Assembly: GCF_030678875.1 (NCBI RefSeq)
Contig: NZ_JAUUDS010000001.1
Location: 372,001-436,000 of the forward strand
DNA: 64,000 nt
Source: Sphingomonas aurea
Lineage (GTDB): Bacteria > Pseudomonadota > Alphaproteobacteria > Sphingomonadales > Sphingomonadaceae
Direction: 5' to 3'
Numbering within the stretch: position 1 is the stretch's first letter; the number at the start of each line of letters is the position of its first letter. Both the position numbers and the translations under genes were made by a program. Under the pieces are notes generated by a model that was not told the origin of the DNA, ran no database searches, and saw only the letters and a program-made list of their open reading frames with translations. Positions 11,465 through 28,425 of the stretch are shown here, one piece after another.

Positions 11465-11526
11465 CTGTCACCGAACCGTAACGTCATCGTCACGAACATG
11501 ACGCCGATCTCGCATCGAACCGTCAT
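11465..11526 (+). promoter_or_regulatory. Pho-box-like array upstream of lipoprotein/TonB receptor genes
   Basis: Seven-base elements recur every 11 bp: CTGTCAC (11465), CCGTAAC (11476), TCGTCAC (11487), a non-matching ATGACGC (11498), CTCGCAT (11509) and CCGTCAT (11520). The PhoB box is a 7-bp repeat (CTGTCAT/C) at 11-bp spacing. The first copy is a full match and four others match at 5 or 6 of 7 positions. The array lies 96-157 bp before the lipoprotein start. PhoB control is inferred from this pattern only. Confidence 0.6.
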
Positions 11527-11621
11527 GCAACGTCCCTAACGCCCCTCTCGAGATCGGCAGGGGGACCCGAGTCGATCGCGGGCCAAGTGCCCGAACCACC
11601 ACGACCGACCGGGAGTTACCG

Positions 11622-13265
11622 ATGTCCAGCTTTTCGCGCACCACCCGCCTGCTCATGGCGGGCACCGCCTGCATGCTTCTTGCCTCTTGCGGGGGTGCGG
11701 ATGACATCGCGTCGCCGGGTGCCGGCACGATCGGCGTCGTCATCAACCAGCCGGCCCCCACGCCGACCCCGACCGCCGCACCCACTCCGGCCGCACTGAC
11801 GGCGGCGCAGTTCGCTACGGCGACGACCGTCAACAATATCAGCGTGACTGCCGACGAGCAGCTGGCGCTGGTGAATGCCGGCAGCAACAATGTCGTCAAC
11901 GGCTTCGGCACGACGCTGAACGGCGTCTATCCGATCAGCGGCGCTTCGCTGGCGACCGCCAGCAACCCGCAGACGGTGCTGGGCAACAGCAGCTTCATCC
12001 AGAACACCAGCTATGTCGGCGCGCTGAGCGGGCCGAACGACAACAGCTTCTCGGGCTGGACCTGCAGCTCGACGGCGGCGACCTTCCTGAACAGTGCGGC
12101 CTGCTCGGCAGTGCCGTCGGTCGGCTCGGGCGGGTCGGCGGCTTCGTGCCCGACCGGCACGACTGACGACGGCATCCTGACCGCAGGCTCGACCAACACC
12201 GGCTTCCGCATCTGCCGCCTGCCGCAGGTCATCACCACCAGCCTGACGCTGCCGAAGATCGCCGGCGTCGTCTATCGCTTCCGCGGCCAGACCGAGGTGG
12301 GCGTCGACGTCGGTTCGCAGGGCGCCGATTCGGGCGTCACGCTGACGATCGCGCCGGGCGTGGTGCTGGCCGCCGACGCGACCGATTCGGCGAACGACCT
12401 GCTGCTGGTCAACCGCGGCAGCCGCATCAGCGCGGTCGGCACCGCCGATGCGCCGATCATCTTCACCTCGCAGCAGAACCTGTTCAGCAACGGCGTGTCC
12501 GATGCGACCCAGGGCCAGTGGGGCGGCGTGATCCTGCTCGGCCGTGCGCCGACCGCCGTCTGCGCGACCGGCACCGGCCCGAACACCGCGGGCGGTACCA
12601 GCACCACCTGCCAGGCGCAGATCGAGGGCGTCGGCAACCGCTTCTACGGCGGTACCACCCAGGCCGATAATTCGGGCACGCTGCAATATGTCCAGATCCG
12701 CTACACCGGCATCGCGATCAGCGAGGGCAATGAGCTGCAGGGCCTGACCCTGGGCGGTACCGGCTCGGGCACGACGATCGACCACGTCCAGAGCCACAAC
12801 TCGTCGGACGATGGCGTCGAGATCTTCGGCGGCACCACCAACCTGAAGTATTTCGTCGTGACCGGCGCCGACGACGACGGCTTCGACGTCGACAATGGCT
12901 GGCGCGGGTACATGCAGTTCATCATCGCCGCGCAGAAGGCGTCCGGCTCTACCGCGGACTCGTTCGCGACCGAGATCGACTCGAACAATGCCGAGGATCT
13001 GCTGCCGCGCACCTTCGGCCGCTACGCCAACTTCACCTTCATCCAGACCAACTCGGCGCCGTCGGCGATCCGCCTGCGCGGCGGTGCGGACTTCGCCTTC
13101 GTCAACGGCATCGTGAAGACGGTGACCGGCGCGACCTGCCTGAACATCATCGCCGGCGAGACGGTGAACGGCCAGCGGACCACCGTGCGTGCGGCGGACC
13201 AGAGCCTGCAGGACGTCGGGCCGCCGACCTTCAACTCGGTCTATTTCCAGTGCCAGGGCCGCTGA
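11622..13265 (+). CDS. Surface lipoprotein, candidate phosphate-starvation (ElpS-like) protein
   Basis: A 547-residue protein starting at ATG after GGGAG. The signal peptide ends in the lipobox LASC with the lipidated cysteine at residue 23. A threonine/proline linker (PTPTPTAAPTP) follows, then a long Gly/Thr/Asn/Asp-rich domain with repeated short strands (for example TTIDHVQSHNSSDDGVEIFG, TNLKYFVVTGADDDGFDVDN) that suggests a right-handed parallel beta-helix. It is paired with the TonB receptor just downstream and stands one gene pair before a complete T2SS. In Caulobacter a phosphate-starvation lipoprotein, ElpS, is encoded beside the T2SS and released with its help. Homology to ElpS is my inference from context, not from alignment. 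Confidence 0.72.
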   Translation: MSSFSRTTRLLMAGTACMLLASCGGADDIASPGAGTIGVVINQPAPTPTPTAAPTPAALTAAQFATATTVNNISVTADEQLALVNAGSNNVVNGFGTTLNGVYPISGASLATASNPQTVLGNSSFIQNTSYVGALSGPNDNSFSGWTCSSTAATFLNSAACSAVPSVGSGGSAASCPTGTTDDGILTAGSTNTGFRICRLPQVITTSLTLPKIAGVVYRFRGQTEVGVDVGSQGADSGVTLTIAPGVVLAADATDSANDLLLVNRGSRISAVGTADAPIIFTSQQNLFSNGVSDATQGQWGGVILLGRAPTAVCATGTGPNTAGGTSTTCQAQIEGVGNRFYGGTTQADNSGTLQYVQIRYTGIAISEGNELQGLTLGGTGSGTTIDHVQSHNSSDDGVEIFGGTTNLKYFVVTGADDDGFDVDNGWRGYMQFIIAAQKASGSTADSFATEIDSNNAEDLLPRTFGRYANFTFIQTNSAPSAIRLRGGADFAFVNGIVKTVTGATCLNIIAGETVNGQRTTVRAADQSLQDVGPPTFNSVYFQCQGR

Positions 13266-13291
13266 GGCCCGGCCAGCACTGATGACGACCA

Positions 13292-13329
13292 CGGGCCGGG
13301 GGAGTGCGCGATCGCGCCGCCCCGGCCCG
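13292..13329 (+). repeat. GC-rich hairpin between lipoprotein and TonB receptor genes
   Basis: CGGGCCGGGG (13292-13301) pairs perfectly with CCCCGGCCCG (13320-13329), and the loop contains a further GCGCGATCGCGC palindrome. Only two T follow, so it is a weak terminator at most. It could stabilise the upstream mRNA or set the lipoprotein:receptor ratio. Confidence 0.6.
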
Positions 13330-13360
13330 TTCACATGATCCTCGCTTCGAAGGCTCCGCC

Positions 13361-16171: not shown

Positions 16172-16833
16172 CCCCAGGGCCGCTCGCGGTACCATTTGGT
16201 GATGACGTACTTCACCCCGCCGCGCACCTTCATTCCCTGATGGAGCGTGGCGGGGTTGAGCGTGCCGTCGGGTCGGCGATTGTTCCAGCAGACCAGCTTT
16301 CCCGTTTCGGGCTGGATGATCTTGTCGACCGCCTTGAACCGGGTCGCACCGCCGGCCTCGGGTTCGTTGAGGTAGACCATCACCGTCCAGGTGCGGTTGC
16401 CGGCGACGCTGCAATAGCGATCGTAATCGATGCCACGGGGCTCGAAATAGTCGGTATGTGCCTTGAACTCCTGCCCGATCGCGTAGCGTTGACCCTGGAG
16501 CGGCTCGCCATGCGCCGGGTCGAGGCCGGTGAAGGCGCGGAGCAGCGCCTCCGTTTCCATCACCGCCGGGTCATCGGCGGCGAGGTCGCCGGTCTCGCTG
16601 GTCCGATACGCGGCGTCGCCATTGGTGTCGGCGATGGTCGAGGGGCGGCGGACCGCGTCGATCCGCTCGACCAACCGGGCGCACAGGCCAGCGGGCAGGA
16701 AGCCGCGGCGCACGAACAGCGTCAGCTTGGGACTGGGGATGCGCTGGACGCCGGGGTGGCTGAGGATATGGGCGACGATCGCGTCGCCATCGATGCCCGA
16801 GCCCAGGTCGGGCGTGGAGGAAAGGCTGGCCAT
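16168..16833 (-). CDS. 2OG-Fe(II) oxygenase, prolyl-4-hydroxylase-like
   Basis: A 221-residue protein whose C-terminal half is a P4H-type double-stranded beta-helix. The iron ligands are His126 and Asp128 (KAHTDYFEP) and His198 (ATLHQG), and the 2-oxoglutarate-binding Lys208 lies in GGVKYVITKWYRERPW. There is no signal peptide, so it should be cytosolic. It converges on the TonB receptor with a 4-bp overlap of the stop codons and diverges from gspC. The substrate is unknown. Its position between a receptor pair and a secretion operon makes hydroxylation of a secreted or surface protein worth testing. Confidence 0.85.
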   Translation of the reverse strand: MASLSSTPDLGSGIDGDAIVAHILSHPGVQRIPSPKLTLFVRRGFLPAGLCARLVERIDAVRRPSTIADTNGDAAYRTSETGDLAADDPAVMETEALLRAFTGLDPAHGEPLQGQRYAIGQEFKAHTDYFEPRGIDYDRYCSVAGNRTWTVMVYLNEPEAGGATRFKAVDKIIQPETGKLVCWNNRRPDGTLNPATLHQGMKVRGGVKYVITKWYRERPWG

Positions 16834-16960
16834 GGCCCCATGGTGCCAGCATCGTGCCCGCGGCGGAAACCATCTTTTCGTTCGGCACGCCCCGACTTCG
16901 CTGATACATGGGGCGAAAGGGCTTGGTTAATGGCGGTAGAGCGGGCGGAATGGTGACTCG

Positions 16961-17812
16961 ATGCGATTGAAGCTCGACCCGCGCGCGCGCCGGCTGATCG
17001 CCCGGCTGCCGGTCGTGAACGTCTACTCGATCGCGGAACTGGCGCTGATGGCCGGGCTGGCGGTGCAGGTCGCGCGACTGATCTGGGTGATCGCCACGCC
17101 GGTGGGGCCGGTGGGGGACTGGCGCCCGGCGGGTGTCACCGTGCCCGGCTCGCCCGTCGAGCTGCTGACCGGCTTCGACCCCTTCTTCCGCCTGCAACAG
17201 GCGCAGACCGCGCCGACCAACGTCACCAACCTGCAACTCACCGTCTTCGGCATCCGCCTCGACGAGGCGACCGGGCGGGGATCGGCGATCGTCGCCGGGC
17301 CGGACGGTGTGCAGCAGAGCGTCGCCGTCGGCGAGGAGATCCAGCCCGGCGTACGCCTGAAATCGGTGGCGTTCGATCACATTACCCTCGATCGCGGCGG
17401 CGCCAGCGAGGATCTGTTCCTCGACCAGTCCGGACAGGCGGGCGCGCCGCCGGGCGGGGCGCCGACGGGTGCGCCCATCCCCGGTGGTCCGCCCCCGGGC
17501 GCCGCGCCGGCCGGAAGCGGCGGCATCCAGGTCGGTCAGCTGCGCCAGGAGATCGGCTTCATCCCGCGGCTTGACAATGGCCGGGTCAGCGGACTGGTCG
17601 TCCGGCCGCAGGGGTCGGGCGACGCGTTCAGAAGGGCGGGCCTGCGCGAGGGCGACGTCGTCACCTCGATCGGCGGCCGCCCGGTCACCGGACCCAGCGA
17701 CCTCGACCGCGTCGCCAGCGAGAATGCGGGCGGCGGCAATGTTTCCATCACGGTAGAGCGCGGACAGGACACGCTGCCCCTCACCATTACGATAGCGGCT
17801 CCCAATCGATGA
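16961..17812 (+). CDS. gspC: Type II secretion protein GspC with PDZ domain
   Basis: A 283-residue inner-membrane protein linking the T2SS platform to the secretin. One N-terminal membrane helix (about 22-45) is followed by the HR domain (NLQLTVFGIRLDEATGRGSA and VGEEIQPGVRLKSVAFDHIT). A Gly/Pro-rich linker (about 150-185) precedes a C-terminal PDZ domain (GLREGDVVTSIGGRPVTGPS, then SITVERG). It is the first gene of a 12-gene gspC-N operon, and the 127-bp gap upstream separates it from the divergent hydroxylase. Its stop overlaps the gspD start (ATGA). Confidence 0.93.
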   Translation: MRLKLDPRARRLIARLPVVNVYSIAELALMAGLAVQVARLIWVIATPVGPVGDWRPAGVTVPGSPVELLTGFDPFFRLQQAQTAPTNVTNLQLTVFGIRLDEATGRGSAIVAGPDGVQQSVAVGEEIQPGVRLKSVAFDHITLDRGGASEDLFLDQSGQAGAPPGGAPTGAPIPGGPPPGAAPAGSGGIQVGQLRQEIGFIPRLDNGRVSGLVVRPQGSGDAFRRAGLREGDVVTSIGGRPVTGPSDLDRVASENAGGGNVSITVERGQDTLPLTITIAAPNR

Positions 17813-20052
17813 TGCGTACTTCCTTCTCCCTGTCCGCCGCCGTCATGGCGGTCGCCGCAGTCGCGCCCGTCGCGGCGCAGACGACGCTCAACGTCCGCGA
17901 CGCGGACATCCGCGCCTTCATCGCCGACGCCGCGCGGGTGACCGGGAGGACCTTCATCGTCGACGCGCGGGTCGCCGGGAAGGTGACGGTCGTCACCGAC
18001 CGGCCGCTGTCGCGCTCCGAATATTTCGAGGTGTTCCTGTCGACGCTGCGTGCCAATGGCCTCGTCGCGGTGCCGACCGGGAACGGCGTGCTGCGCATCC
18101 AGCCGATCGACAACGCCGCCTCGCAGCCCAGCCGGATCGGGTCGGCCGGGGCGCAGCGCAACAGCTTCGTGACCGAGATCGTGCGCCTGCGCTCGATCGA
18201 CGCGGCCAGCGCGGTCGAGACGGTGCGTCCGCTGGTCAGCGCGCAAGGGGCGGTCACCGCCAATCGCGGCGGCAACAGCATCGTCGTCGTCGACTTCGCC
18301 GACAATATCCGCCGCATCCGCGAGGTGCTGCGCCGGGTCGATGCCGATGGCTCGTCGACCCGCATCGTGACGCTGCGCAACGCCTCTGCCCGCGAGGTCG
18401 CGACCGCGCTCCAGGCGCTGGCCGGTGGCGGAACGGCACCGGGCGGCACCGGTGGCGCGGCCACCGCCGGTGGCAGCGGCGTGTCGGTCGTCGCGATCGA
18501 GAGTTCCAATTCGGTCGGCCTGCGCGGCGATCAGGCGAGCGTCGCGCGCCTCGCCGCCGTCGCCGCCGACCTCGACCGCAAGGCCAAGAGCGGCACCGAG
18601 ATCCGCGTCGTCTTCCTCGAAAACGCCGATGCCGAGCAGCTGCTCCCCGTCCTCCAGCGCCTCGTTGGACAGACCCCGGACCCGGTGCAGGAGACGACGC
18701 TGTCGCGCGGCAGTTTCCAGACGACCAACTCGACGACGGGCAGCTCCAGCGGCCAGATCACGCCACAGATCATTCAGCCGGCGACGCAGGTGTCGAGCGG
18801 CGGTGGTGGTGGATCGACCACCGCGAACGGGCAGCAGGCGCCGATCTCCTCGGCGGGCAGCCGTACCCAGGCGGTCGTCACCCGCTTCACCGGCGCCAAC
18901 GCCATCGTCATCGCCGCCCCCGCCGATATCCAGCGCCAGCTGGCCGAAGTGACGCGCCAGCTCGACACACGGCGCGAGCAGGTGCTGATCGAGGCGATCA
19001 TCGCCGAGGTTTCGGACTCCACCGTCAAACGGCTGGGCGCGCAGTTCCTGCTCGGCAATCTGTCGGGCGGGGCGTTCGCGGCGTCGACCTACACCAATAC
19101 CGCGCCCAACATTCTCCAGATCGCCGGCGCCGTCGGCGCGCGTGAGATCGGCGGGACGACCACCACTGTCGTCGCGGCGGACGGGACGCGCACCACGACG
19201 AACACCAACAATGCCGCAGCCGATACGCTGACCCAGTCGGCGATCAGCTCGATCATCGGCACCGCCGGCGGCTTCGCGGGCTGGGGCGGCAAGGTCGGCG
19301 ACACGATCTTCGGCGCGATCATCAACGCGGTGAAGAGCGACAATACCTCGAACCTGCTCCAGGTGCCGCACATCATCACGCTCGACAACCAGCAGGCGCA
19401 CAGCCTGGTCGGGCAGGAAATCCCGGTCACCACCGGGCAGGCGCTGTCGAACAATTTCGACAATGCCTTCCGCACCGTGCAGCGCCAGAATGTCGGCATC
19501 CAGCTCGACGTGAAGCCGCAGGTGAATGCGGGTGGCTCCTTGAAACTCTATGTGCGGCTGGAGGTCAGCTCGATCGCCGGGCCGGTCTCGACCAGCAACC
19601 AGGAGCTGATCCTGAACAAGCGCGCGTTCGAGAACGTGTTCACCCCCGACGACGGGCAGATTACCGTCATCGGCGGGCTGCTCGACGATGCGGAGCGGCG
19701 GACGATCGAGAAGATCCCGGTGCTCGGCGACATCCCCGTGCTCGGCAACCTGTTCCGGTCCAAGGCGCGCAGCCGGACCAAGACCAACCTGATGGTCTTC
19801 ATCCGCCCCACCATTCTGCGCACGCCCGCCGACAGCCGCCGTGTGACCGAGCAGCGTTATGGCTATCTGCGCGCGACGCAGGGCTATGCGCAGCCGGGTG
19901 TCGAGCCCTCGATCGACCAGCTGGTCCGCGATTACATGAACGCCGCGCCGCCGATCCCGTCCTCTCCTATGCCCGGCAATATCGAGGACCCGAACATCGC
20001 CGTGCCGACCCAGGGTCAGCCGAGCATGTCGATCCGGCCGGAGCGGAAATGA
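17809..20052 (+). CDS. gspD: Type II secretion secretin GspD
   Basis: A 747-residue outer-membrane secretin. The signal peptide is followed by the N0 domain (LNVRDADIRAFIADAARVTG), N1-N3 repeats with Ser/Thr/Gly-rich loops, and the secretin core (ILQIAGAVGAREIG, VPHIITLDNQQAHSLVGQEI, PDDGQITVIGGLLDD, VLGDIPVLGNLFRS). The C-terminal tail after the barrel is long enough for an S domain, but I cannot identify a pilotin gene here. The start is ATG 17809, overlapping gspC; ATG 17812 is an equivalent choice. Confidence 0.95.
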   Translation: MMRTSFSLSAAVMAVAAVAPVAAQTTLNVRDADIRAFIADAARVTGRTFIVDARVAGKVTVVTDRPLSRSEYFEVFLSTLRANGLVAVPTGNGVLRIQPIDNAASQPSRIGSAGAQRNSFVTEIVRLRSIDAASAVETVRPLVSAQGAVTANRGGNSIVVVDFADNIRRIREVLRRVDADGSSTRIVTLRNASAREVATALQALAGGGTAPGGTGGAATAGGSGVSVVAIESSNSVGLRGDQASVARLAAVAADLDRKAKSGTEIRVVFLENADAEQLLPVLQRLVGQTPDPVQETTLSRGSFQTTNSTTGSSSGQITPQIIQPATQVSSGGGGGSTTANGQQAPISSAGSRTQAVVTRFTGANAIVIAAPADIQRQLAEVTRQLDTRREQVLIEAIIAEVSDSTVKRLGAQFLLGNLSGGAFAASTYTNTAPNILQIAGAVGAREIGGTTTTVVAADGTRTTTNTNNAAADTLTQSAISSIIGTAGGFAGWGGKVGDTIFGAIINAVKSDNTSNLLQVPHIITLDNQQAHSLVGQEIPVTTGQALSNNFDNAFRTVQRQNVGIQLDVKPQVNAGGSLKLYVRLEVSSIAGPVSTSNQELILNKRAFENVFTPDDGQITVIGGLLDDAERRTIEKIPVLGDIPVLGNLFRSKARSRTKTNLMVFIRPTILRTPADSRRVTEQRYGYLRATQGYAQPGVEPSIDQLVRDYMNAAPPIPSSPMPGNIEDPNIAVPTQGQPSMSIRPERK

Positions 20053-21680
20053 AGATCGCGACCGGCGACCAGACGATCCCGCCGCCGCCCCCGGCAGAGG
20101 GCGATCGGGCGATCGTGCCGCAACTGACGCTCCCCTATGGTTTCGCGCGCAAATACGGCGTCGCGGTGCGGCCGGGCGAGCCCGATGCGCCGCTGACCGT
20201 CGCGCTGCGCGAGGGTGCAGATCCGCGCGCGCTGATCGAGGCGCGCCGCGTCCTCGCCCGCCCGTTCGACATCGCGGTGATCGACGCATCCGCGTTCGAG
20301 CGCCTGCTGTCTGACGCCTATGCGATGGATGGCCAGGCCAATGCGCTCGCCGCGGTCGGCATGGGCAACGAGCTGGACATGCTGGCGGACGGCATTCCGA
20401 CCGCCGAGGACCTGCTCGACACCGCCGACGATGCGCCGGCCATCCGCCTCATCAACGGCATCATCGCCGACGCCGCGCGCAACGGCGTGTCGGACATTCA
20501 TATCGAGCCCTATGAAACCGGCCTTGTCGTGCGGATGCGCATCGACGGCGTGCTGCGCGAGACGCTCAGGATGCCGCCACACGTCGCGCCGGTGGTGGTC
20601 AGCCGCGTCAAGGTGATGGCGCGGCTCGACATCGCCGAGCGGCGCGTGCCGCAGGATGGGCGCATGGGGCTGACGCTGGGCGGCAAGCTGCTCGACGTGC
20701 GCGTCTCGACGCTGCCGAGCCGCGCGGGCGAGCGGGTGGTGCTGCGTATCCTCGACAAGGAGAATGCCGGCATCGACCTGGAGGCGCTGGGGCTGACGCC
20801 GTCGATGTACGCGCTGCTGAAGGGTGCGCTCGCCGAACCCAACGGCATCATCCTGGTCACCGGCCCGACCGGTTCGGGCAAGACGACCAGCCTCTATGCG
20901 GCGCTGCGCCTGCTAAACGACGGCAGTCGCAACATCCTGACGGTCGAAGACCCGGTCGAATACGCGGTCGAGGGTGTCGGCCAGACGCAGGTCAATGCCA
21001 AGGTCGGGCTGACCTTTGCCGCGGGCTTGCGAGCGATCCTGCGCCAGGACCCGGACGTGGTGATGATCGGCGAAATCCGCGACCGCGAGACGGCCGAGAT
21101 CGCGGTGCAGGCGTCGCTGACCGGGCATCTGGTGCTCTCCACCGTCCATACCAACGACGCGGTCGGCGCGATCACCCGGATGCGTGACATGAAAGTCGAG
21201 CCGTTCCTGCTCGCCTCGACGTTGCGCGCGGTGATCGCGCAGCGGCTGGTGCGACGGCTCTGCCCCAATTGCCGCCGTCCGGTGCCCGCCCGTTCGACCG
21301 TCGCGGGGCTTAAGGTGCGTGCCGGCGACACGCTGGCGACGCTGCTCGGCATTCCCGACGACGCGACGATCTACGAGGCGGCGGGCTGCGACCAGTGCAG
21401 CCATACCGGCTTCAAGGGGCGGATCGGGGTGTTCGAGGCGGTGCGGGTGGACGACACGATCCGCCGCCTCATCAACGAGGGCGGCGACGAGGCGGCAATT
21501 TCCGCGCATGCCTTTGCCCGCACCCCCAACCTCGCCGCGGCAGCGCGCGATCTGGTGATCGCTGGCCAGACGACGCCCGAAGAGGCGATCCGCGTGTCGC
21601 GTCGCGACGCGACCGAAACCGAGGAAGCCGAGCCGGTGCCGGTCGACGTGGAGCGGCGCGCGTTGCCGATCGATGGCTGA
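20049..21680 (+). CDS. gspE: Type II secretion ATPase GspE
   Basis: A 543-residue cytoplasmic assembly ATPase. An N1E-type domain is followed by the N2E/RecA-like core with Walker A GPTGSGKT at residues 272-279, Asp boxes (TVEDPVEYAVEGVGQTQVN), Walker B (DPDVVMIGEIRDRETAE) and the His box (GHLVLSTVHTNDA). A tetracysteine zinc module is present (LCPNC...GCDQC). All catalytic motifs are intact. It overlaps both gspD (ATGA) and gspF. Confidence 0.96.
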   Translation: MKIATGDQTIPPPPPAEGDRAIVPQLTLPYGFARKYGVAVRPGEPDAPLTVALREGADPRALIEARRVLARPFDIAVIDASAFERLLSDAYAMDGQANALAAVGMGNELDMLADGIPTAEDLLDTADDAPAIRLINGIIADAARNGVSDIHIEPYETGLVVRMRIDGVLRETLRMPPHVAPVVVSRVKVMARLDIAERRVPQDGRMGLTLGGKLLDVRVSTLPSRAGERVVLRILDKENAGIDLEALGLTPSMYALLKGALAEPNGIILVTGPTGSGKTTSLYAALRLLNDGSRNILTVEDPVEYAVEGVGQTQVNAKVGLTFAAGLRAILRQDPDVVMIGEIRDRETAEIAVQASLTGHLVLSTVHTNDAVGAITRMRDMKVEPFLLASTLRAVIAQRLVRRLCPNCRRPVPARSTVAGLKVRAGDTLATLLGIPDDATIYEAAGCDQCSHTGFKGRIGVFEAVRVDDTIRRLINEGGDEAAISAHAFARTPNLAAAARDLVIAGQTTPEEAIRVSRRDATETEEAEPVPVDVERRALPIDG

Positions 21681-22896
21681 TTTCGACTATCTGGCGATCG
21701 ACACCCGCGGCAACGAACGCCGCGGCCATGTCGCCGCCGCCGACATCGACGCCGCGCGCACGACGCTCGACCGCCAGCGGCTCTACGTCGTCCGGATCGA
21801 GCCGGGCGCGCCGCCGGTCGCGCGTGGGCGGCCGCTGTTCGGGCTGCAGCTCGGCCGGCCGCGCATGTCGGGCAAGCAGCTGACCCTGTTCACCCGCCAG
21901 CTGGCGACGCTCAACCGCGTCTCGCCGCTGGAGGAATCGCTGCGCACGATCACCCGCCAGACCGAGCAGGAGCGGGTGCAGGCGATCGTCCGCACCGTCC
22001 ATGCCGGGGTTGTCGAGGGACGGCGGCTGGCCGATGCGATGGCGCGCGAGCCGAAGAGCTTCCCGCCGCTCTACCGCGCGATGGTCGCGGCGGGCGAGAG
22101 TTCGGGGACGCTGCCGACCATCCTCGACCGGCTGGCGGCCCTGCTGGAACGGCAGGCGGAGATCCGCGGCAAGCTCATCACCGCGCTCGCCTATCCCGCG
22201 ATCCTCGCGGTGGTGGCGCTGGGCGTGGTGACCGCGCTGATGATGTTCGTGGTGCCGCAGGTGGTCGAGCAGTTCGACACGGTCGGGCAGCAGCTGCCGC
22301 TCCTCACCCGCATGGTCATTGCGCTGTCCGATTTCCTGGTCGGCTGGTGGTGGGTGATGCTGATCGCGGCCGTGCTGCTCGGCCTCGCGACGTGGCGGCT
22401 GCTGAAGGATCCGGGCATCCGGCTGTCGTTCGACACCGGCCTGCTCCGCATGCCGCTGATCGGGCGGCTGCTGCGCGACCTGCACGCGGCGCGGATGGCG
22501 CGGACGCTCGGCACGATGGTCGCCAGTCGGCTGCCGCTGCTGGAGGGGCTGACTCTGACCGCCGGTACGATCCACAACCGTCGCCTGCGCGTCGCGTCCG
22601 ACGAGATCGTCGATGCGATCCGCGGCGGTGGCAGCCTGTCGGCGGCGATGCGGCGGGCGGGCGTCTTCCCGCCGCTCCTGACCTATCTGGCCGCCAGCGG
22701 CGAGGCGGCGGGGCGGCTCGACGAGATGCTGGAGCGCGCCGCCGACTATCTGGAGCGCGAGTTCGACCGCTTCACCGCGACCGCCCTGTCGCTGCTGGAG
22801 CCGGCGATCATCGTCGTGATGGGAGGCATCGTCGCCACCATCGTGCTATCGATCCTGCTGCCCATCCTCCAGCTCAACACGCTGGCGGGCGGGTGA
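21673..22896 (+). CDS. gspF: Type II secretion inner-membrane platform protein GspF
   Basis: A 407-residue polytopic protein with two homologous cytoplasmic helical domains (FTRQLATLNRVSPLEESLRT and RTLGTMVASRLPLLEGLTLT) and three membrane segments (about 170-190, 220-240 and 375-400). It organises the assembly platform with GspE, L and M. The ATG overlaps gspE by 8 bp, implying translational coupling. Confidence 0.95.
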   Translation: MADFDYLAIDTRGNERRGHVAAADIDAARTTLDRQRLYVVRIEPGAPPVARGRPLFGLQLGRPRMSGKQLTLFTRQLATLNRVSPLEESLRTITRQTEQERVQAIVRTVHAGVVEGRRLADAMAREPKSFPPLYRAMVAAGESSGTLPTILDRLAALLERQAEIRGKLITALAYPAILAVVALGVVTALMMFVVPQVVEQFDTVGQQLPLLTRMVIALSDFLVGWWWVMLIAAVLLGLATWRLLKDPGIRLSFDTGLLRMPLIGRLLRDLHAARMARTLGTMVASRLPLLEGLTLTAGTIHNRRLRVASDEIVDAIRGGGSLSAAMRRAGVFPPLLTYLAASGEAAGRLDEMLERAADYLEREFDRFTATALSLLEPAIIVVMGGIVATIVLSILLPILQLNTLAGG

Positions 22897-22903
22897 CACG
22901 CGA

Positions 22904-23359
22904 ATGAGAGGTTTCATGCGTACCGATTTGGAAAAGCGTCGTAAACGGGAGGCCGGCTTTACGCTGGTGGAGCTGATGGTCGTGATCGTCATCATCGGCC
23001 TGCTGGCGACGATCGTCGCGCTGAACGTCCTGCCCTCCGGCGATACCGCGCGCATCCAGAAGGCGAAGGCCGATATCGCGCAGATCGAGGGCGGGTTGGA
23101 ACTCTTCAAGCTCCAGAACATCAACTACCCAACCACCGCCCAAGGCCTTCAAGCACTGGTAACCCGCCCCGATGGCCTTGCCGATCCCAGCCGTTACCAG
23201 ACCGGCGGCTATCTGAAGCGTCTGCCCAAGGACCCTTGGGGCAACGCCTATCTCTACGCCTCGCCCGGCCAGCACGGCGAGGCCGATGTCTGGACCTACG
23301 GGGCCGATGGCAAGGAAGGCGGCGAGGGGATCAACGCCGATATCGGCAGCTGGCAGTAA
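22904..23359 (+). CDS. gspG: Major pseudopilin GspG
   Basis: A 151-residue type II secretion major pseudopilin. The prepilin leader KRRKREAG is cleaved before FTLVELMVVIVIIGLL, with Glu at +5. The C-terminal part ends DVWTYGADGKEGGEGINADI, the calcium-binding region of GspG. The start could be ATG 22904 or the ATG at 22916 (MRTDLEKRRKR). It is followed by an intra-operon REP-like element before gspH. Unlike GspH and GspJ, it has an ordinary single leader. Confidence 0.94.
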   Translation: MRGFMRTDLEKRRKREAGFTLVELMVVIVIIGLLATIVALNVLPSGDTARIQKAKADIAQIEGGLELFKLQNINYPTTAQGLQALVTRPDGLADPSRYQTGGYLKRLPKDPWGNAYLYASPGQHGEADVWTYGADGKEGGEGINADIGSWQ

Positions 23360-23384
23360 GGTGACCGCGCCACTCTCCCTCCAT

Positions 23385-23479
23385 CGTCATCCCTGCGCAA
23401 GCGGGGATCCATACACGCCGTCGTCCGCGATCGTCCGGAACGTCAGCGCGTCTGGATCCCCGCCTGCGTGGGGATGACG
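23385..23479. repeat. REP-like palindromic element inside the gsp operon
   Basis: CGTCATCCCTGCGCAAGCGG-type sequence at 23385-23411 is repeated in inverse orientation at 23453-23479 (TGGATCCCCGCC...GGGGATGACG). Each arm can itself fold. The core CGTCATCCC...GGGATGACG recurs at 29723-29750. It occupies most of the 131-bp gspG-gspH gap, the only sizeable gap in the operon, and may modulate expression of the minor pseudopilins. Confidence 0.7.
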
Positions 23480-23490
23480 GGAGGGGGACG

Positions 23491-24006
23491 ATGCCCGCCG
23501 AACGCGGCTCCATGCCCGAGAGCCGTTCCGCCGAACGCGGCTTCACCCCCGTGAGGCGTTCCGCCGAACACGGCTTCACTTTGGTCGAGCTGATGGTCGT
23601 CATTACCGTGATCGGCCTTGCCGCCGCGATCGCGGCGTTCAACATGCCCGACTCGCGCGGGCGGGTGTTCGACGAGGGGCTGCGCTTCGCCGCCCGCGTC
23701 CGCGCCGCGCGTGACATCGCAGTCGTAGAAGCGCGACCGGTGAGCCTGTGGGTGACGACCGGCGGCTATGGCTTCGAGCGCCGCATCGCCGGGCGCTGGA
23801 GCCCGGTCGCCGACAAGCCGCTGCGGGTCGAGCGCTGGAACGAGGGCACGCGCGCCACCATCCCCGATCCCAGCGGCCGGGTGCGCCTGACCTTCGATCC
23901 CACCGGGATCGCCGATCGGGGCCTCGACCTGCAATTGTCGCGCAGCGGCGTCGACGCGCTGGTCCGCGTGGGCGCCGACGGAGAGGTCCGCACCGATGCG
24001 CAATAG
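23491..24006 (+). CDS. gspH: Minor pseudopilin GspH with triplicated leader block
   Basis: A 171-residue minor pseudopilin. The true processing site is HG|FTLVELMVVITVIG. Upstream the leader is built of 33-bp/11-residue units: 23491-23523 (degenerate), 23524-23556 (RSAERGFTPVR) and 23557-23589 (RSAEHGFTLVE). Only the last copy has Glu at +5 and a following hydrophobic helix. The remainder (RFAARVRAARDIAVVEARPV and PDPSGRVRLTFDPTGIADRG) is typical of GspH. The start ATG follows GGAGGGGGAC. gspI overlaps its end by 11 bp. Confidence 0.9.
   Translation: MPAERGSMPESRSAERGFTPVRRSAEHGFTLVELMVVITVIGLAAAIAAFNMPDSRGRVFDEGLRFAARVRAARDIAVVEARPVSLWVTTGGYGFERRIAGRWSPVADKPLRVERWNEGTRATIPDPSGRVRLTFDPTGIADRGLDLQLSRSGVDALVRVGADGEVRTDAQ
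23524..23589 (+). repeat. Two clear 33-bp tandem repeats in gspH leader (third, degenerate, at 23491)
   Basis: Copies at 23524-23556 and 23557-23589 share the core CGTTCCGCCGAAC followed by GCGGCTTCAC or ACGGCTTCAC. The preceding 33 bp (23491-23523) has the diverged core GCCGAACGCGGCT in the same register. The unit is a multiple of three, so the frame is kept. The same unit occurs in gspJ. Confidence 0.85.
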
Positions 24007-24442
24007 GGCCGATGCGGGCTTCACCCTGATCGAGATCATGGTCGCGCTCGCCGTATTCAGTCTCGCCGTGCTCGCCCTGGTCCGGCTGGAAAGCGCGACC
24101 GCGCGTGGCGCCGGGCTGATCGACGAGACGACGGTGGCGCAACTCGTCGCCCGCAACGTCGCGGTCGAGGCGCTGACCGAGGCCCAGCCGCCCGCGCCCG
24201 GGCTGACGACGGGATCGGAGGCGAATGGCGGGCGCAGCTGGAACTGGACGCGGCAGGTGTCGTCGGCCGGCGACGCGCGGGTGATGCGGGTGGATGTGGC
24301 GGTGTCCAACCTCGCCGGGCAGCAGGTCGGCCGCATCACCATGATCCGCCCACCGTCCGCGGCGGCGGGTCAGACGACGCCGGTACCGGGGGCGACGCCG
24401 ACGCCGACGCCTACCGCGACCCCTCCCGCGGGCGGCCGCTGA
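23996..24442 (+). CDS. gspI: Minor pseudopilin GspI
   Basis: A 148-residue protein with a short normal leader (MRNRADAG) cleaved before FTLIEIMVALAVFSLAVLAL, followed by a soluble domain with QLVARNVAVEAL and a Pro/Thr-rich C-terminal tail (TPTPTPTATPP). It is part of the GspI-J-K pseudopilus tip. It overlaps gspH by 11 bp, and its TGA overlaps the gspJ ATG by one base. Confidence 0.92.
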   Translation: MRNRADAGFTLIEIMVALAVFSLAVLALVRLESATARGAGLIDETTVAQLVARNVAVEALTEAQPPAPGLTTGSEANGGRSWNWTRQVSSAGDARVMRVDVAVSNLAGQQVGRITMIRPPSAAAGQTTPVPGATPTPTPTATPPAGGR

Positions 24443-25143
24443 TGGCTTGCGTCCGCCCGGTAGACCGATCCGCCGAACACGGCTTCACGCCCGTGAGGCG
24501 TTCCGCCGAACACGGCTTCACGCCCTTGAGGCGATCCGCCGAACACGGCTTCACGCTGGTCGAAGTGATGGTCGCGCTGATGATTTTCGGCATGATCGCC
24601 GCCGCCGGCGTCGCGATCCTGTCGTTCAGCATCCGCGCGCAGGCCGCCTCGGGCGCGCGGCTGGACGAGGGCGCGGCGCTCGCGCGGACGCTGTCGGTCC
24701 TGTCCGCCGACCTGGCGCAGGCGGTGGCTCGGCCGACCCGCGACGAGGGCGGCATCCTTCGCCCCGCTTTCATCGGCGAGCCGACCAGCCTGCTGCTGGT
24801 TCGCGGCGGCTGGACCAACATCGATGCCGCGCCGCGCGCCGGCGAGCAGAAGGTGGCATGGACCGTCGACGGCGAAAATCTGGTGCGGACCGGCTTTCCC
24901 CGGCTCGACGGCGCGGCGCCGCTGCCGCCGACGCCGATGCTGCCGGGGGTGCGGGCGCTGGTGATGCGCTATCGCTATGGCGGCGCGTGGAGCGACCGCT
25001 GGGACGGCGCCTCGGGCGTCGCACTGCCCCAGGCGATCGAGGTGCGGCTGGTCCGCAGCAATGGCGCGCAGTACCGCGCGATGTTCCTGGTCGGCACCGG
25101 CTATGCCGCGAACGCCCCTGCGCAGACCGGCAATGCGACCTGA
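24442..25143 (+). CDS. gspJ: Minor pseudopilin GspJ with triplicated leader block
   Basis: A 233-residue minor pseudopilin. Its leader contains three near-identical 11-residue units (RSAEHGFTPVR, RSAEHGFTPLR, RSAEHGFTLVE) encoded by 33-bp repeats, and the last runs into the membrane helix VMVALMIFGMIAAAGVAILS. The periplasmic domain contains RTLSVLSADLAQAVARPTRD and AWTVDGENLVRTGFPRLDG, typical of GspJ. It is translationally linked to gspI (TGATG) and gspK. Confidence 0.91.
   Translation: MACVRPVDRSAEHGFTPVRRSAEHGFTPLRRSAEHGFTLVEVMVALMIFGMIAAAGVAILSFSIRAQAASGARLDEGAALARTLSVLSADLAQAVARPTRDEGGILRPAFIGEPTSLLLVRGGWTNIDAAPRAGEQKVAWTVDGENLVRTGFPRLDGAAPLPPTPMLPGVRALVMRYRYGGAWSDRWDGASGVALPQAIEVRLVRSNGAQYRAMFLVGTGYAANAPAQTGNAT
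24466..24564 (+). repeat. Three 33-bp tandem repeats in gspJ leader
   Basis: Units lie at 24466-24498, 24499-24531 and 24532-24564. The first 22 bases or so of each are identical except for one position (CGATCC or CGTTCC). The first two end CCCGTGAGG/CCCTTGAGG and the third ends CTGGTCGAA, which encodes the real +3 to +5 residues. They match the gspH repeats almost exactly. Confidence 0.92.
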
Positions 25144-26122
25144 TCCCCGCCCGCCGGAACGTGCCGGGGAGCGGGGTGCGGCGCTGCTGACCGTGCTGAT
25201 GCTGGTCGCGGTCATCGCAGTGATGGCGGGCGCCGGGCTGGAGAAGCTGCGCCTGTCGACACGACTGGCCGGCAACGCCGCCGCGGTCGAGCAGGCTCGT
25301 GCCTATGCCGTGGCGGCAGAGGCGCTGGCGATGGTCCGGGTCGGCGACCTGCTGTCGCAGAGCAACCAACGGGTCACCCTGCTCGGCGACTGGAGCGGGC
25401 GACCGTTCGGCCTGCCGCTGCCCGGCGGCGGCGTCGCGACGGCACGGGTCAGCGATGGCGGCAACTGCTTCAACCTCAACAGCCTGGCGCTACAGGTGAC
25501 GCCAGGCGTCTATGCGACCAATTTCGGCGCGCGGGTGCAGTTCACCCGGCTGCTGCGGCTGATCGGCATCCCCGCGCAGGTTGCCGAGCAGGTCGCGGGC
25601 AGCACCGCCGACTGGATCGACACCGACGACGAGCAGCAGGTCAGCGGTGCCGAGGACGCACGCTATACCGGCCAGCAGCTGCCATACCGCACCGGCGGCA
25701 CGCTGATGGCCGATCGCAGCGAGCTGCGCGCGGTGGCGGGGATGACGCCCGAACTCTACACGCAGATCCGCCCCTGGGTCTGCACACTGCCGACCGTCTC
25801 GCCGGCGCGGATCAACGTCAACACGCTGCTGCCCGAGCGGGCGCCGCTCCTCGCCATGCTGGCGCCCGACACCGTGTCGGTCGAGGCGGCGCGCCAGCAG
25901 CTGCTGCGTCGGCCGCTCCAAGGCTGGAGCGATCCAGCCGCGGTGTGGACCGGCATGACCGCGCCGATCGAGGCGGGGCAGCAGACGGCGGTCACCACCG
26001 GCTGGTTCGATCTGGCCATCGACGTGTCGCTGCCGGGCGCTCAGGTGGAAGAACATGCGCTGATCGACGCGACAAGGCTTCCCGTCGGGCTCGTGTCGCG
26101 GCAATGGGGGGAGGAGACATGA
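25133..26122 (+). CDS. gspK: Minor pseudopilin GspK
   Basis: A 329-residue tip pseudopilin, the largest of the minor set. The leader MRPDPRPPERAGERG precedes AALLTVLMLVAVIAVMAGAG. GspK typically lacks Glu at +5, as here. Hallmarks include GNAAAVEQARAYAVAAEALA, the DWIDTDDE motif and ARINVNTLLPERAPLLAML. The start at 25133 overlaps the end of gspJ by 11 bp. It forms the pseudopilus tip with GspI and GspJ. Confidence 0.92.
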   Translation: MRPDPRPPERAGERGAALLTVLMLVAVIAVMAGAGLEKLRLSTRLAGNAAAVEQARAYAVAAEALAMVRVGDLLSQSNQRVTLLGDWSGRPFGLPLPGGGVATARVSDGGNCFNLNSLALQVTPGVYATNFGARVQFTRLLRLIGIPAQVAEQVAGSTADWIDTDDEQQVSGAEDARYTGQQLPYRTGGTLMADRSELRAVAGMTPELYTQIRPWVCTLPTVSPARINVNTLLPERAPLLAMLAPDTVSVEAARQQLLRRPLQGWSDPAAVWTGMTAPIEAGQQTAVTTGWFDLAIDVSLPGAQVEEHALIDATRLPVGLVSRQWGEET

Positions 26123-27216
26123 CGACCCTGCTGTTCCTTCCGCCCGGCCTGCCGGACCCCGACGCACCCGTGGGGCTGCGCTGGATGCGCTTCGGCGACA
26201 CCGGCATGCTGGCGCGCGGCGAGGGGACACCGCCCGAGGGTGACCGCGTCGTCGCGGTCGCGCCCGCTGATGCGGTGACGCTGCACTGGGCGGATTTGCC
26301 CGGCCGCTCGGTCGCACAGGCAACTGCCGCCGCGCGCATCCTCGCCGCCGAGGCGAGCGCAGCGACGACAGGCGAACTCCATGTGGCGGTCGGCGAGGGC
26401 GGGGCCGGATCGCCCGATCGTCCGATCGCGGTGGTAGGGGCCGCGGCCATGCGCGAGTGGCTGGCGATGCTCGCTGCCGCGGGGGTCGATCCGATCGCGC
26501 TGGTGCCCGCGCCGATGCTGCTGCCGCAGCCCGACGAGGGGTATTACCGCGCCACTGTCGGCGGCGTCGGCGTCATCCGCGGCCGTACCAGCGGCTTTGC
26601 CGACGAGGCGCAACTGACCGAGCTGGTCACCGCCGGCGCACCCGTCAAGCCGCTGGTCCGCGACCCGCTGGAGCGCGCGCTCGCCGCCGCTGCCGCCGCG
26701 CCGGTGCTCGACCTGCGCCAGGGCGCGTTCGCGCGGCGCCGCAAGCTGGCGATCGACTGGCGACTGATCCGCCGGCTGGCCATGTATGGCGGCGCGATCC
26801 TGCTCGTCTCCTTCGCGATCTCGCTGGTGCGGCTGGCGAAGTACGACGTCGCCGCCGACACGGTGAACGCCCGCGCCGACGCGCTCGCCGCCACGGGCCT
26901 GCCGCGTGGCGAGACGCTGACCGATCCCGACCGCCAGCTCGACGAGCGCGGACGGCGGGTGATCGGGCCGGGGCTGGGCTTCACCACCACCACCGCGGCC
27001 GCCTTTGCGGCGATCCGCAGCGTGCCGGGGACGGAAGTGACCGCGATCGACTTCACCGACACCGGCGAGCTGCGCCTGACCGTCGCAACGGAACGCGAGG
27101 CGCTGGCCACCGACCTCAAGAACGCGCTGGAGGCCGCCGGCTTCCGCGTCCGCGCCAGCGTGTTCCAGTCGAACGGTGGCCGGGTGACCGGCGAGCTGAC
27201 GGTCAGCCGGCGATGA
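26119..27216 (+). CDS. gspL: Type II secretion protein GspL
   Basis: A 365-residue inner-membrane protein. Its N-terminal cytoplasmic actin-like domain (MTTLLFLPPGLPDPDAPVGL) recruits GspE. One membrane helix (MYGGAILLVSFAISLVRLA, about 225-245) is followed by a periplasmic ferredoxin-like domain. A strong GGGGAGGAG precedes the ATG, which overlaps the gspK stop. Sequence conservation is moderate, but position and layout make the call firm. Confidence 0.88.
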   Translation: MTTLLFLPPGLPDPDAPVGLRWMRFGDTGMLARGEGTPPEGDRVVAVAPADAVTLHWADLPGRSVAQATAAARILAAEASAATTGELHVAVGEGGAGSPDRPIAVVGAAAMREWLAMLAAAGVDPIALVPAPMLLPQPDEGYYRATVGGVGVIRGRTSGFADEAQLTELVTAGAPVKPLVRDPLERALAAAAAAPVLDLRQGAFARRRKLAIDWRLIRRLAMYGGAILLVSFAISLVRLAKYDVAADTVNARADALAATGLPRGETLTDPDRQLDERGRRVIGPGLGFTTTTAAAFAAIRSVPGTEVTAIDFTDTGELRLTVATEREALATDLKNALEAAGFRVRASVFQSNGGRVTGELTVSRR

Positions 27217-27226
27217 GGGGGCGGCG

Positions 27227-27703
27227 ATGAGGGGCCTGCGTACCTGGTTCGACGGGCGCTCGCTGCGCGAGAAGCGGCTGCTGCTGGTCATGGCCGCGCT
27301 GCTGGCCGTGACGATCGTCTGGGGTTTGATCCTCCGCCCGCTCGACGACGCGCTGTCGAGTGCGCGCGAGGCGCACACCACCGCCGTCATCCGCTATGGC
27401 GAGACGGCGGCGCGGGTCGAGGCACTGCGCGATGCGAAGGCGGCGCGGGTGCGGCCGCTCGCCGGCACGCTCGCCGACACGGTTCGTCTCCGGGCCGAGG
27501 AGGCGGGCTTTCCGATCGGCAGCCTCGATCCCGGCAACGACGGCAGCGTCAACCTGTCGATCCAGTCGGCACGCGGCGCGGCGCTGACCGCCTGGCTGGC
27601 CCGGCTGGAGCGGGGTGGCATCGTCGTCCAGTCGGCGACCCTGACCGACAATGGCGACCGCACCGTTGCCGCCCGCCTGGTGTTGAGGAGCCGCGCGACA
27701 TGA
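27227..27703 (+). CDS. gspM: Type II secretion protein GspM
   Basis: A 158-residue protein with a short cytoplasmic start (WFDGRSLREKRLLLVM), one membrane helix (AALLAVTIVWGLILRPL) and a periplasmic ferredoxin-like domain (LADTVRLRAEEAGFPIGSLD and LTAWLARLERGGIVVQSATL). The latter is diagnostic of GspM. It partners GspL in the platform and overlaps gspN by ATGA. Confidence 0.88.
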   Translation: MRGLRTWFDGRSLREKRLLLVMAALLAVTIVWGLILRPLDDALSSAREAHTTAVIRYGETAARVEALRDAKAARVRPLAGTLADTVRLRAEEAGFPIGSLDPGNDGSVNLSIQSARGAALTAWLARLERGGIVVQSATLTDNGDRTVAARLVLRSRAT

Positions 27704-28425
27704 GGCGCATCCGCCTGTCCACCGGCCCGGCCGCGCTGTTCGGCGCGATGCTGCTGATCGCCCTCATCGTCTTCCTGCCGATGCGGCTGGTGCTCGGCTG
27801 GGCGGACGCCGGCGAGATGGGCCTGCGCGCCCGGTCGGTCACCGGCAGCATCTGGGGCGCGACACTGAGCGAGGCGCGCTTCGGTGACCTGGCGGTCGGC
27901 GACCTCAGCGCCCGCCTGTCGCCGCTGGCGCTGTTCGGCGGGCGTGCGGCGCTCGCGCTGGAGGGGCCGGGCGGCATTGGCGTGCCGCCGCTGTCGGGCG
28001 ATGCCTATGTCAGCCGCCACGGCTACGGCGTCGGCGCGATGACCGGACGGATCACCACCGGTCGCGCGTTCCAGCCGCTGCCGGTCACCAGCATCGACCT
28101 GGACGACCTGACCGTGCAGTTCGAGGACGATCGCTGCAAGATCGCCGAGGGGCGGGTGCGCGCGCTGCTGTCGGGTGACGTCGCCGGGATCGGCGTGCCG
28201 CCATCGGTCGCCGGGGCCGCGCGCTGCGACGCGGGGGCGCTGCTGCTGCCACTGAGTGGCCCGGCGGGAACCGAGGTCGTCAATCTTCGCATCGCCGGCA
28301 ACGGCCGCTATACCGCCGAGCTGGCGGTGCGCCCTGCCGATCCGGTCGCGGCGCAGCGACTGGAGGCGGCGGGCTTCGTCCGGGGACCGGCCGGCTACGC
28401 ACTTTCGGTCGAAGGCAGCTTCTGA
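27700..28425 (+). CDS. gspN: Type II secretion protein GspN
   Basis: A 241-residue protein with one N-terminal membrane anchor (LFGAMLLIALIVFLPMRLVL) and a periplasmic part of beta-strand character (ARSVTGSIWGATLSEARFGD, then LALFGGRAALALEGPG). It closes the operon. GspN is an accessory component present in only some T2SS, and its exact role is unsettled. No gspO prepilin peptidase follows, so processing must be supplied from elsewhere. Confidence 0.85.
   Translation: MRRIRLSTGPAALFGAMLLIALIVFLPMRLVLGWADAGEMGLRARSVTGSIWGATLSEARFGDLAVGDLSARLSPLALFGGRAALALEGPGGIGVPPLSGDAYVSRHGYGVGAMTGRITTGRAFQPLPVTSIDLDDLTVQFEDDRCKIAEGRVRALLSGDVAGIGVPPSVAGAARCDAGALLLPLSGPAGTEVVNLRIAGNGRYTAELAVRPADPVAAQRLEAAGFVRGPAGYALSVEGSF

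Follow-up and report, generated by a model that had tools for sequence, protein, structure and literature searches.

In Caulobacter crescentus, the gene of the lipoprotein ElpS (elpS, CC0170) is followed by a TonB receptor gene (CC0171) and by the gspC-N genes of a type II secretion system (T2SS), and Le Blastier et al. 2010 (PMC2996285) find the genes similarly arranged in Xanthomonas campestris, Sphingomonas alaskensis and Hyphomonas neptunium, together with an S. alaskensis homologue of the elpS product. According to the same paper, ElpS is made under phosphate starvation, the receptor gene being independently regulated; release of the protein, which is lipidated at Cys 20 and cut at position 38, requires the T2SS and is blocked by protease inhibitors. 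The C. crescentus T2SS is placed within the PhoB regulon (PMC11208175). How a lipoprotein crosses the outer membrane via a T2SS is an open question, to which a first answer, GspN, came in 2025 from Acinetobacter and Klebsiella: Roberts et al. 2025 (PMC12802150) report that T2SS-dependent surface lipoproteins of Acinetobacter baumannii need GspN as well as a stretch rich in Gly/Ser or Asn/Asp behind the lipobox, and that a Gly/Asp hybrid motif occurs in two other species. Here we describe an ElpS-type locus of Sphingomonas aurea, found in a stretch of 64,000 nucleotides ("the window"; RefSeq assembly GCF_030678875.1, contig NZ_JAUUDS010000001.1, positions 372,001 to 436,000), and report that, across the genus, the residue directly after the lipidated Cys of its lipoprotein (residue +2) covaries with the presence of the T2SS.

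The lipoprotein-receptor-T2SS locus is of an already published kind. A preliminary description of the sequence had read it as lipoprotein, TonB receptor, convergent prolyl 4-hydroxylase (P4H)-like oxygenase and gspC-gspN in an ElpS-type arrangement, and both the order and the identities agree with Pfam and NCBIfam profile searches of the window (Table 1), in which the T2SS core set GspC to GspM was matched throughout, and GspN as well. Lipoprotein, receptor and gspC-N follow one another as in PMC2996285, with the gene of a 2-oxoglutarate (2OG)-Fe(II) oxygenase, hereafter the hydroxylase, interposed between receptor and gspC. Besides gene order, the Sphingomonas locus shares with elpS a lipobox, a linker in the region of the ElpS cut and, judged by the promoter motif, a probable phosphate-type control of the lipoprotein gene; it differs from it in the hydroxylase gene. 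The preliminary description had already set this enzyme outside the described system, and none of the words oxygenase, hydroxylase and prolyl appears in the main text of PMC2996285; among the papers listed by a literature search, none links a hydroxylase to this locus in its title or the opening of its abstract.

Overall, we favour, with a probability of about 45%, an ElpS-type unit in which PhoB induces the lipoprotein-receptor pair, the T2SS with its GspN carries the lipoprotein to the surface, and the hydroxylase is an unrelated neighbour. Under phosphate shortage, PhoB would turn on a two-gene unit encoding a surface lipoprotein and its partner TonB receptor. The adjoining T2SS, GspN included, would most likely recognise the lipoprotein by the residues that immediately follow its lipidated Cys and bring it to the cell surface, and the lipoprotein, perhaps after cleavage of its flexible Pro/Thr linker, may then help to collect a phosphate source that the partner receptor would take up.

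The lipoprotein carries a lipobox LASC (Cys23) followed by GGADDIASPGAG, with a Pro/Thr linker at about residues 44-57. Its mature form begins CGGADD, which fits the Gly/Ser-, Asn/Asp- or Gly/Asp-rich post-lipobox criterion, and since the T2SS of the window also includes gspN, transport by T2SS and GspN is favoured. A. baumannii InvL and Klebsiella PulA offer a second likeness, namely a lipoprotein gene beside a T2SS with gspN and Gly/Asp-rich residues after the Cys; the Sphingomonas lipoprotein differs from these in a conserved ASPG that lies outside the motif as published in PMC12802150. The motif [VI]ASPG follows the lipidated Cys in 109 of 117 lipoprotein loci and ISSPG in one, the seven loci in which no motif was found being in part cut or divergent. 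In the receptor of the window, VEVSAPGVD precedes a TonB-box-like DIVVVG, and a motif E/D-[VI]-S-x-PG precedes the TonB-box-like segment in all 80 named loci, in every one of which lipoprotein and receptor genes share a strand with a gap below 600 bp. Four other receptors of the same genome whose N-terminus is seen (L216, L217, L219, L224) lack the SxPG motif. The two partners resemble each other in these Pro-Gly motifs (lipoprotein 11706-11720, receptor 13553-13612), which are also kept where the hydroxylase is absent.

Next, we compared residue +2, read ungapped, between loci with and without a T2SS. Among the named loci, Gly occupies this position in 44 of 51 with a T2SS in the locus versus 3 of 27 without; the T2SS of one of these three (L061) lies elsewhere, another (L055) is cut at a contig end, and the third is L067. 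For the genus sample, orthology was decided by cut-offs set by the analyst, which for gspD meant strong matches, including those of G047 and G085 in pieces, and the divergent secretins of gspD-less genomes were not counted as this T2SS. The reading at genus scale covered 106 further loci, from a sample that overlaps with the named loci. Gly was found at +2 in 50 of 62 genomes with the orthologous T2SS versus 1 of 42 without, once G006, G030 and G117, which gave no motif, had been set aside from the 107 genus-sample lipoproteins. The sole T2SS-less Gly genome, G035 (81% complete), is the one that L055 comes from, and the contig of L055 breaks off shortly after the receptor. A slightly different set, leaving out G006, G098 and G117, gave 50 of 61 versus 1 of 43 (phi 0.78). 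Compared with Gly +2, all 561 other residue splits across the whole protein, each an alignment column, were more weakly tied to the T2SS, and of the ten next strongest, seven fell in the signal peptide or at +5. In addition, Gly is kept in four of the five genomes whose assembly has the T2SS away from the lipoprotein.

To allow for shared descent, we compared independent pairs on a tree built from the protein body: of 10 pairs, 5.5 changed in the same way, none in the opposite way, and 4.5 showed no difference (sign test, median p 0.031, range 0.031-0.125), a net score unmatched by all 561 splits. Taken with the published dependence of lipoprotein export on GspN, the covariation within the genus suggests that the T2SS acts on the lipoprotein itself, and points to a role of the T2SS in this genus more direct than the secretion of a protease. 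As a separate observation, read by eye from the matches, 41 of the 47 genus genomes without a gspD orthologue gave a divergent secretin match (E about 1e-38 or better), apparently from a second T2SS elsewhere.

Several observations weigh against a T2SS that reads these residues. Once aligned, 25 of the 51 Gly cases, those of the CGADD type, prove to lack the +2 residue, the Gly read there being the invariant one behind it; with about half of the Gly cases being of this sort, the signal may be better put as Asp, Asn or Ser at +2 in 42 of 43 genomes without the T2SS. The same three residues also stand at +2 in eleven or twelve T2SS genomes, and one T2SS genome with Asp at +2 (G098) was dropped from the set of 61 by the motif filter. 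The genus sample overlaps with the named loci that prompted the idea and is not an independent test. A receptor-tree pair test on the 80 named loci, for which L061 and L079 were set by hand as having a T2SS and L055 as unknown, gave 1.7 pairs of 5 in the same way and none opposite (p 0.5), and the first genus-sample tree gave 4.5 of 8 in the same way (p 0.0625). Outside the genus, in 27 loci that were the best-scoring rather than a random choice and were read by eye, Gly stands at +2 in 16 of 17 genomes with the orthologous T2SS and in all 10 without it, G128 and G208 among these 10 having no clear T2SS. In A. baumannii, Gly/Ser-rich and Asn/Asp-rich motifs are both reported to serve the T2SS (PMC12802150), and in C. 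crescentus ElpS is reported to be still surface-exposed in a gspC-N deletion (PMC2996285). Finally, the three-box promoter pattern considered below has no second match within the window, and so none before gspC.

The ElpS experiments bear most directly on the main rival, in which the lipoprotein would reach the surface by another route and the T2SS would only secrete a protease that frees it by a cut in the linker. Surface exposure without the T2SS and the block of release by protease inhibitors (PMC2996285) speak for it directly, and the Pro/Thr linker of the window lipoprotein lies at about the same distance from the Cys as the ElpS cut; it leaves unexplained, however, that covariation with the T2SS in the genus is seen in the sorting residues and the signal peptide and not in the body of the protein, and we consider it unlikely in this genus. 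We judge it improbable that T2SS and lipoprotein-receptor pair are functionally untied neighbours, with the covariation an accident of a few clades. The lack of covariation in the 27 other-genus loci would be expected on that account, as would the 39 genus genomes that have lipoprotein and hydroxylase together without the T2SS and the promoter array kept in 23 of 26 T2SS-less loci; against it stand a split that is the strongest of 561 and runs in a single direction in independent pairs, and a neighbourhood reported in four genera.

The covariation of the sorting residue with the T2SS in the genus is the one new, testable point. We put forward, tentatively, that in Sphingomonas the T2SS and GspN read residue +2, along with +5 and the signal peptide, as a routing code, and that T2SS-less lineages would carry an Asp/Asn/Ser code for another export route. 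The same lipoprotein occurs with and without the T2SS in one genus, with matching differences in the sorting residues, and the signal can be tested by simple swaps. If true, the routing code would provide a natural comparative model of how surface lipoproteins are exported with and without a T2SS, and the Caulobacter view of a T2SS that acts in release only would need revision.

We then evaluated the promoter of the lipoprotein gene, for which a Pho-box-like array had been proposed. The array consists of the 7-mers CTGTCAC, CCGTAAC, TCGTCAC, ATGACGC, CTCGCAT and CCGTCAT in this order, the last three fitting the consensus more poorly. In the window, its tandem-of-4 and tandem-of-3 scores were reached by 0 of 2000 dinucleotide shuffles (tandem-of-2, p 0.0045), and in 76 of 77 lipoprotein upstream regions, that of the window among them, the tandem-of-4 score was higher than in any of 30 shuffles. 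When the test was repeated with 60 shuffles, 72 of 76 named loci passed, made up of 49 of the 50 adjacent to a T2SS and the 23 of 26 without one given above, and the rate among control upstream regions was 13/52 for gspC, 4/80 for the receptor, 0/23 for the dehydrogenase and 0/61 for gspE. The Pho-box-like array proposed earlier is thus real, and, conserved in the genus, it supports a phosphate-type promoter for the lipoprotein. The rate upstream of gspC exceeds that of the other controls, and the T2SS itself may be phosphate-controlled in some genomes.

The three-box Pho pattern has one match in the window versus 0.06 expected. Across the 3.4-Mb genome, three matches are exact, and eight are found when up to one mismatch is allowed (two of the eight being one array in two registers), versus none for a reversed control pattern. 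The exact matches lie in the lipoprotein promoter, upstream of a pstS-like gene that itself comes after a histidine-kinase gene, and before another TonB receptor gene, whose product carries a carboxypeptidase-regulatory domain (G000:C7:879329-879355, L224); a match with one mismatch lies upstream of a phytase-like gene (G000:C12:157256-157282, L230). The last two genes are candidate members of the same regulon. Because the array is conserved and the pattern also precedes the pstS-like gene, PhoB control of the lipoprotein is likely. Regulators of the OmpR/PhoB family have such repeat spacing in common, and a response regulator of this family other than PhoB might bind the array instead; with the pattern exact before the pstS-like gene and one mismatch away before the phytase-like gene of the same genome, we regard this as very improbable.

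Table 1. Coordinates of the features of the locus in the window
Feature	Position	Strand	Basis
Six Pho-box-like 7-mers, 11-bp spacing, lipoprotein promoter	11465..11526 (end approximate)	+	repeat scoring versus shuffles
Lipoprotein, 547 aa, ElpS-like by position	11622..13265	+	lipobox LASC, Cys23, sequence reading
Cys23 codons and residues +2 to +6 (GGADD), region covarying with the T2SS in the genus	11688..11705	+	
TonB-dependent receptor, 936 aa	13361..16171	+	Pfam Plug and barrel
Prolyl 4-hydroxylase-like 2OG-Fe(II) oxygenase, 221 aa	16168..16833	-	PF13640, E 1.2e-15
gspC, D, E, F, G, H, I, J, K, L, M	16961..27703	+	profile matches
gspN (T2SSN, PF01203)	27700..28425	+	E 1.2e-15
Glu/Leu/Phe/Val-type dehydrogenase; not counted in the module	28650..29702	+	profile match

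A gene likely to be misread in this neighbourhood is that of the prolyl hydroxylase: it stands beside the receptor and is probably outside the phosphate module. Its product matches P4Hs of the Bacillus anthracis type (3itq, 5hv0; E about 1e-17), with homology over residues 49-217 that takes in the metal- and 2OG-binding residues; H126, D128, H198 and K208, corresponding to the HxD...H metal site and the 2OG-binding Lys, are invariant in 24 sequences. No signal peptide is visible by eye. The genome encodes one hydroxylase paralogue at 43% identity and distant paralogues of the receptor. A TonB receptor gene adjoining a 2OG-Fe(II) oxygenase gene, likewise with no visible signal peptide, recalls CciT-CciO (Fiu/PiuA with PiuC/YbiX). 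However, CciT-CciO is described as a Fur-controlled operon whose adjacency is conserved in Proteobacteria (PMC12004947), whereas the Sphingomonas receptor and hydroxylase genes are convergent and their adjacency is mostly confined to the genus.

To place the enzyme, we tallied its neighbours in genomes of the genus and of other genera of the family, taking about 57-58% identity as the analyst-set limit for a hydroxylase orthologue; coordinates were entered by hand from hit tables, and in those of the family, which list part of the matches, "not listed" does not equal absent. Within the genus sample, an orthologue was found in 111 of 121 genomes. In 96 of the 103 genomes with both hydroxylase and lipoprotein, the two are no more than 9 kb apart, with opposite strands in 91 of these 96; for hydroxylase and gspD the same distance applies in 63 of 67. 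The hydroxylase accompanies the lipoprotein in the 39 genomes without an orthologous gspD mentioned above, and stands by gspD in six genomes where no lipoprotein was found. One genome (G094) was counted in this tally as having the lipoprotein on a weak match (E 2.6e-6, no position) and was left out of the residue +2 analyses. Named loci without the T2SS retain the order lipoprotein, receptor, hydroxylase, dehydrogenase in 23 of the 24 that have the hydroxylase, and a gspE-like stretch of about 40% identity is present in 12 of those 23. Such a gspE-like gene or fragment, between hydroxylase and dehydrogenase, was seen in the T2SS-less loci L020, L033, L034, L049-L051, L053, L054, L062, L065, L072, L075 and L154, perhaps as a remnant or a separate ATPase gene.

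Conservation of the four-part order, which the preliminary description had proposed to survey, held in part: a survey of lipoprotein, hydroxylase and gspD found all three side by side in 54 of the 121 genomes of the genus, but, among the matches listed, in no more than 9 of the 145 other-genus genomes with a listed hydroxylase orthologue. Among these 145, the hydroxylase lies within 6 kb of the lipoprotein in 19, is not near it in 126, and is near gspD in 16. Lipoprotein and gspD are no more than 12 kb apart in 50 of the 76 other-genus genomes with both listed, and of these 50, 15 have the hydroxylase nearby, 20 have it elsewhere, and 15 have no listed orthologue. Around the 28 best-scoring other-genus hydroxylase loci, again not a random choice, the dehydrogenase (within 1.5 kb) was the neighbour in 15, ccmC only in 2, gspC or gspD in 9, and none of these in 2. 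The hydroxylase looks like a part of the module within the genus and not outside it, and the wide adjacency of PiuC/CciO-like enzymes to a cognate receptor was not seen in these listed genomes.

Lineages that lack the enzyme point the same way. Eleven named genomes have no hydroxylase beside the receptor, and eight of them gave no orthologue, the best match being the 41-43% paralogue or weaker (some are incomplete metagenome-assembled genomes); in all eight loci both the lipoprotein and the receptor motifs are kept. G231, a genome 99% complete, has no hydroxylase match and retains lipoprotein motif and linker. Linker prolines numbered 6.6 in loci without versus 7.4 in loci with the hydroxylase (p 0.065), no clear change. 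On these grounds, the idea that the enzyme hydroxylates the lipoprotein linker or the Pro-Gly motifs was rejected. Hydroxylase presence shows no tie to the T2SS like that of residue +2.

The earlier suggestion that the hydroxylase is a functional part that modifies prolines of the lipoprotein, the receptor or another secreted client does not fare well. It could appeal to the tight linkage within the genus, kept in genomes without gspD, to co-presence with the lipoprotein (Fisher p 0.0012, not corrected for descent), to the conserved Pro-Gly motifs and Pro-rich linkers of both proteins, and to the known receptor-oxygenase partnership of CciT-CciO (PMC12004947); yet few other-genus orthologues lie near the lipoprotein, the dehydrogenase is the commoner neighbour, and the motifs outlast the enzyme, which makes such a role highly doubtful. 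The hydroxylase is probably an incidental neighbour and not a component of the phosphate module, because it is mostly unlinked in other genera, is missing in lineages that keep the rest, and leaves the motifs unchanged where it is missing. The simplest history we infer starts from a hydroxylase-dehydrogenase pair in whose flanks the two blocks arrived: the enzyme, a common neighbour of the downstream dehydrogenase, would have become enclosed while keeping an unrelated job.

Regarding the remaining parts of the locus, ccmC follows the dehydrogenase downstream of gspN, and for the receptor a start at 13361, which gives a signal peptide, was preferred over the longest-open-reading-frame start at 13304. 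The lipoprotein has no Pfam or NCBIfam match, and its alignment gave no sequence match in PDB. Its structural model is of low confidence (predicted local distance difference test, pLDDT, 64; predicted template modelling score, pTM, 0.70), and a fold search with this model placed beta-helix proteins at the top of the list, none at E<=0.001, which weakly suggests that the body is probably a beta-helix. A second, weak lipoprotein match in the genome (L002) was discarded, the likeness being confined to signal peptide and linker. A link to dssAB was rejected as well: as described in PMC11928319, dssA is an ABC permease gene and dssB a monocistronic receptor gene, not a T2SS-lipoprotein pair. Finally, a record titled Arthrobacter sp. 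TPD3018 (L058) bears the Sphingomonas locus; either its title is probably wrong or the assembly is mixed.

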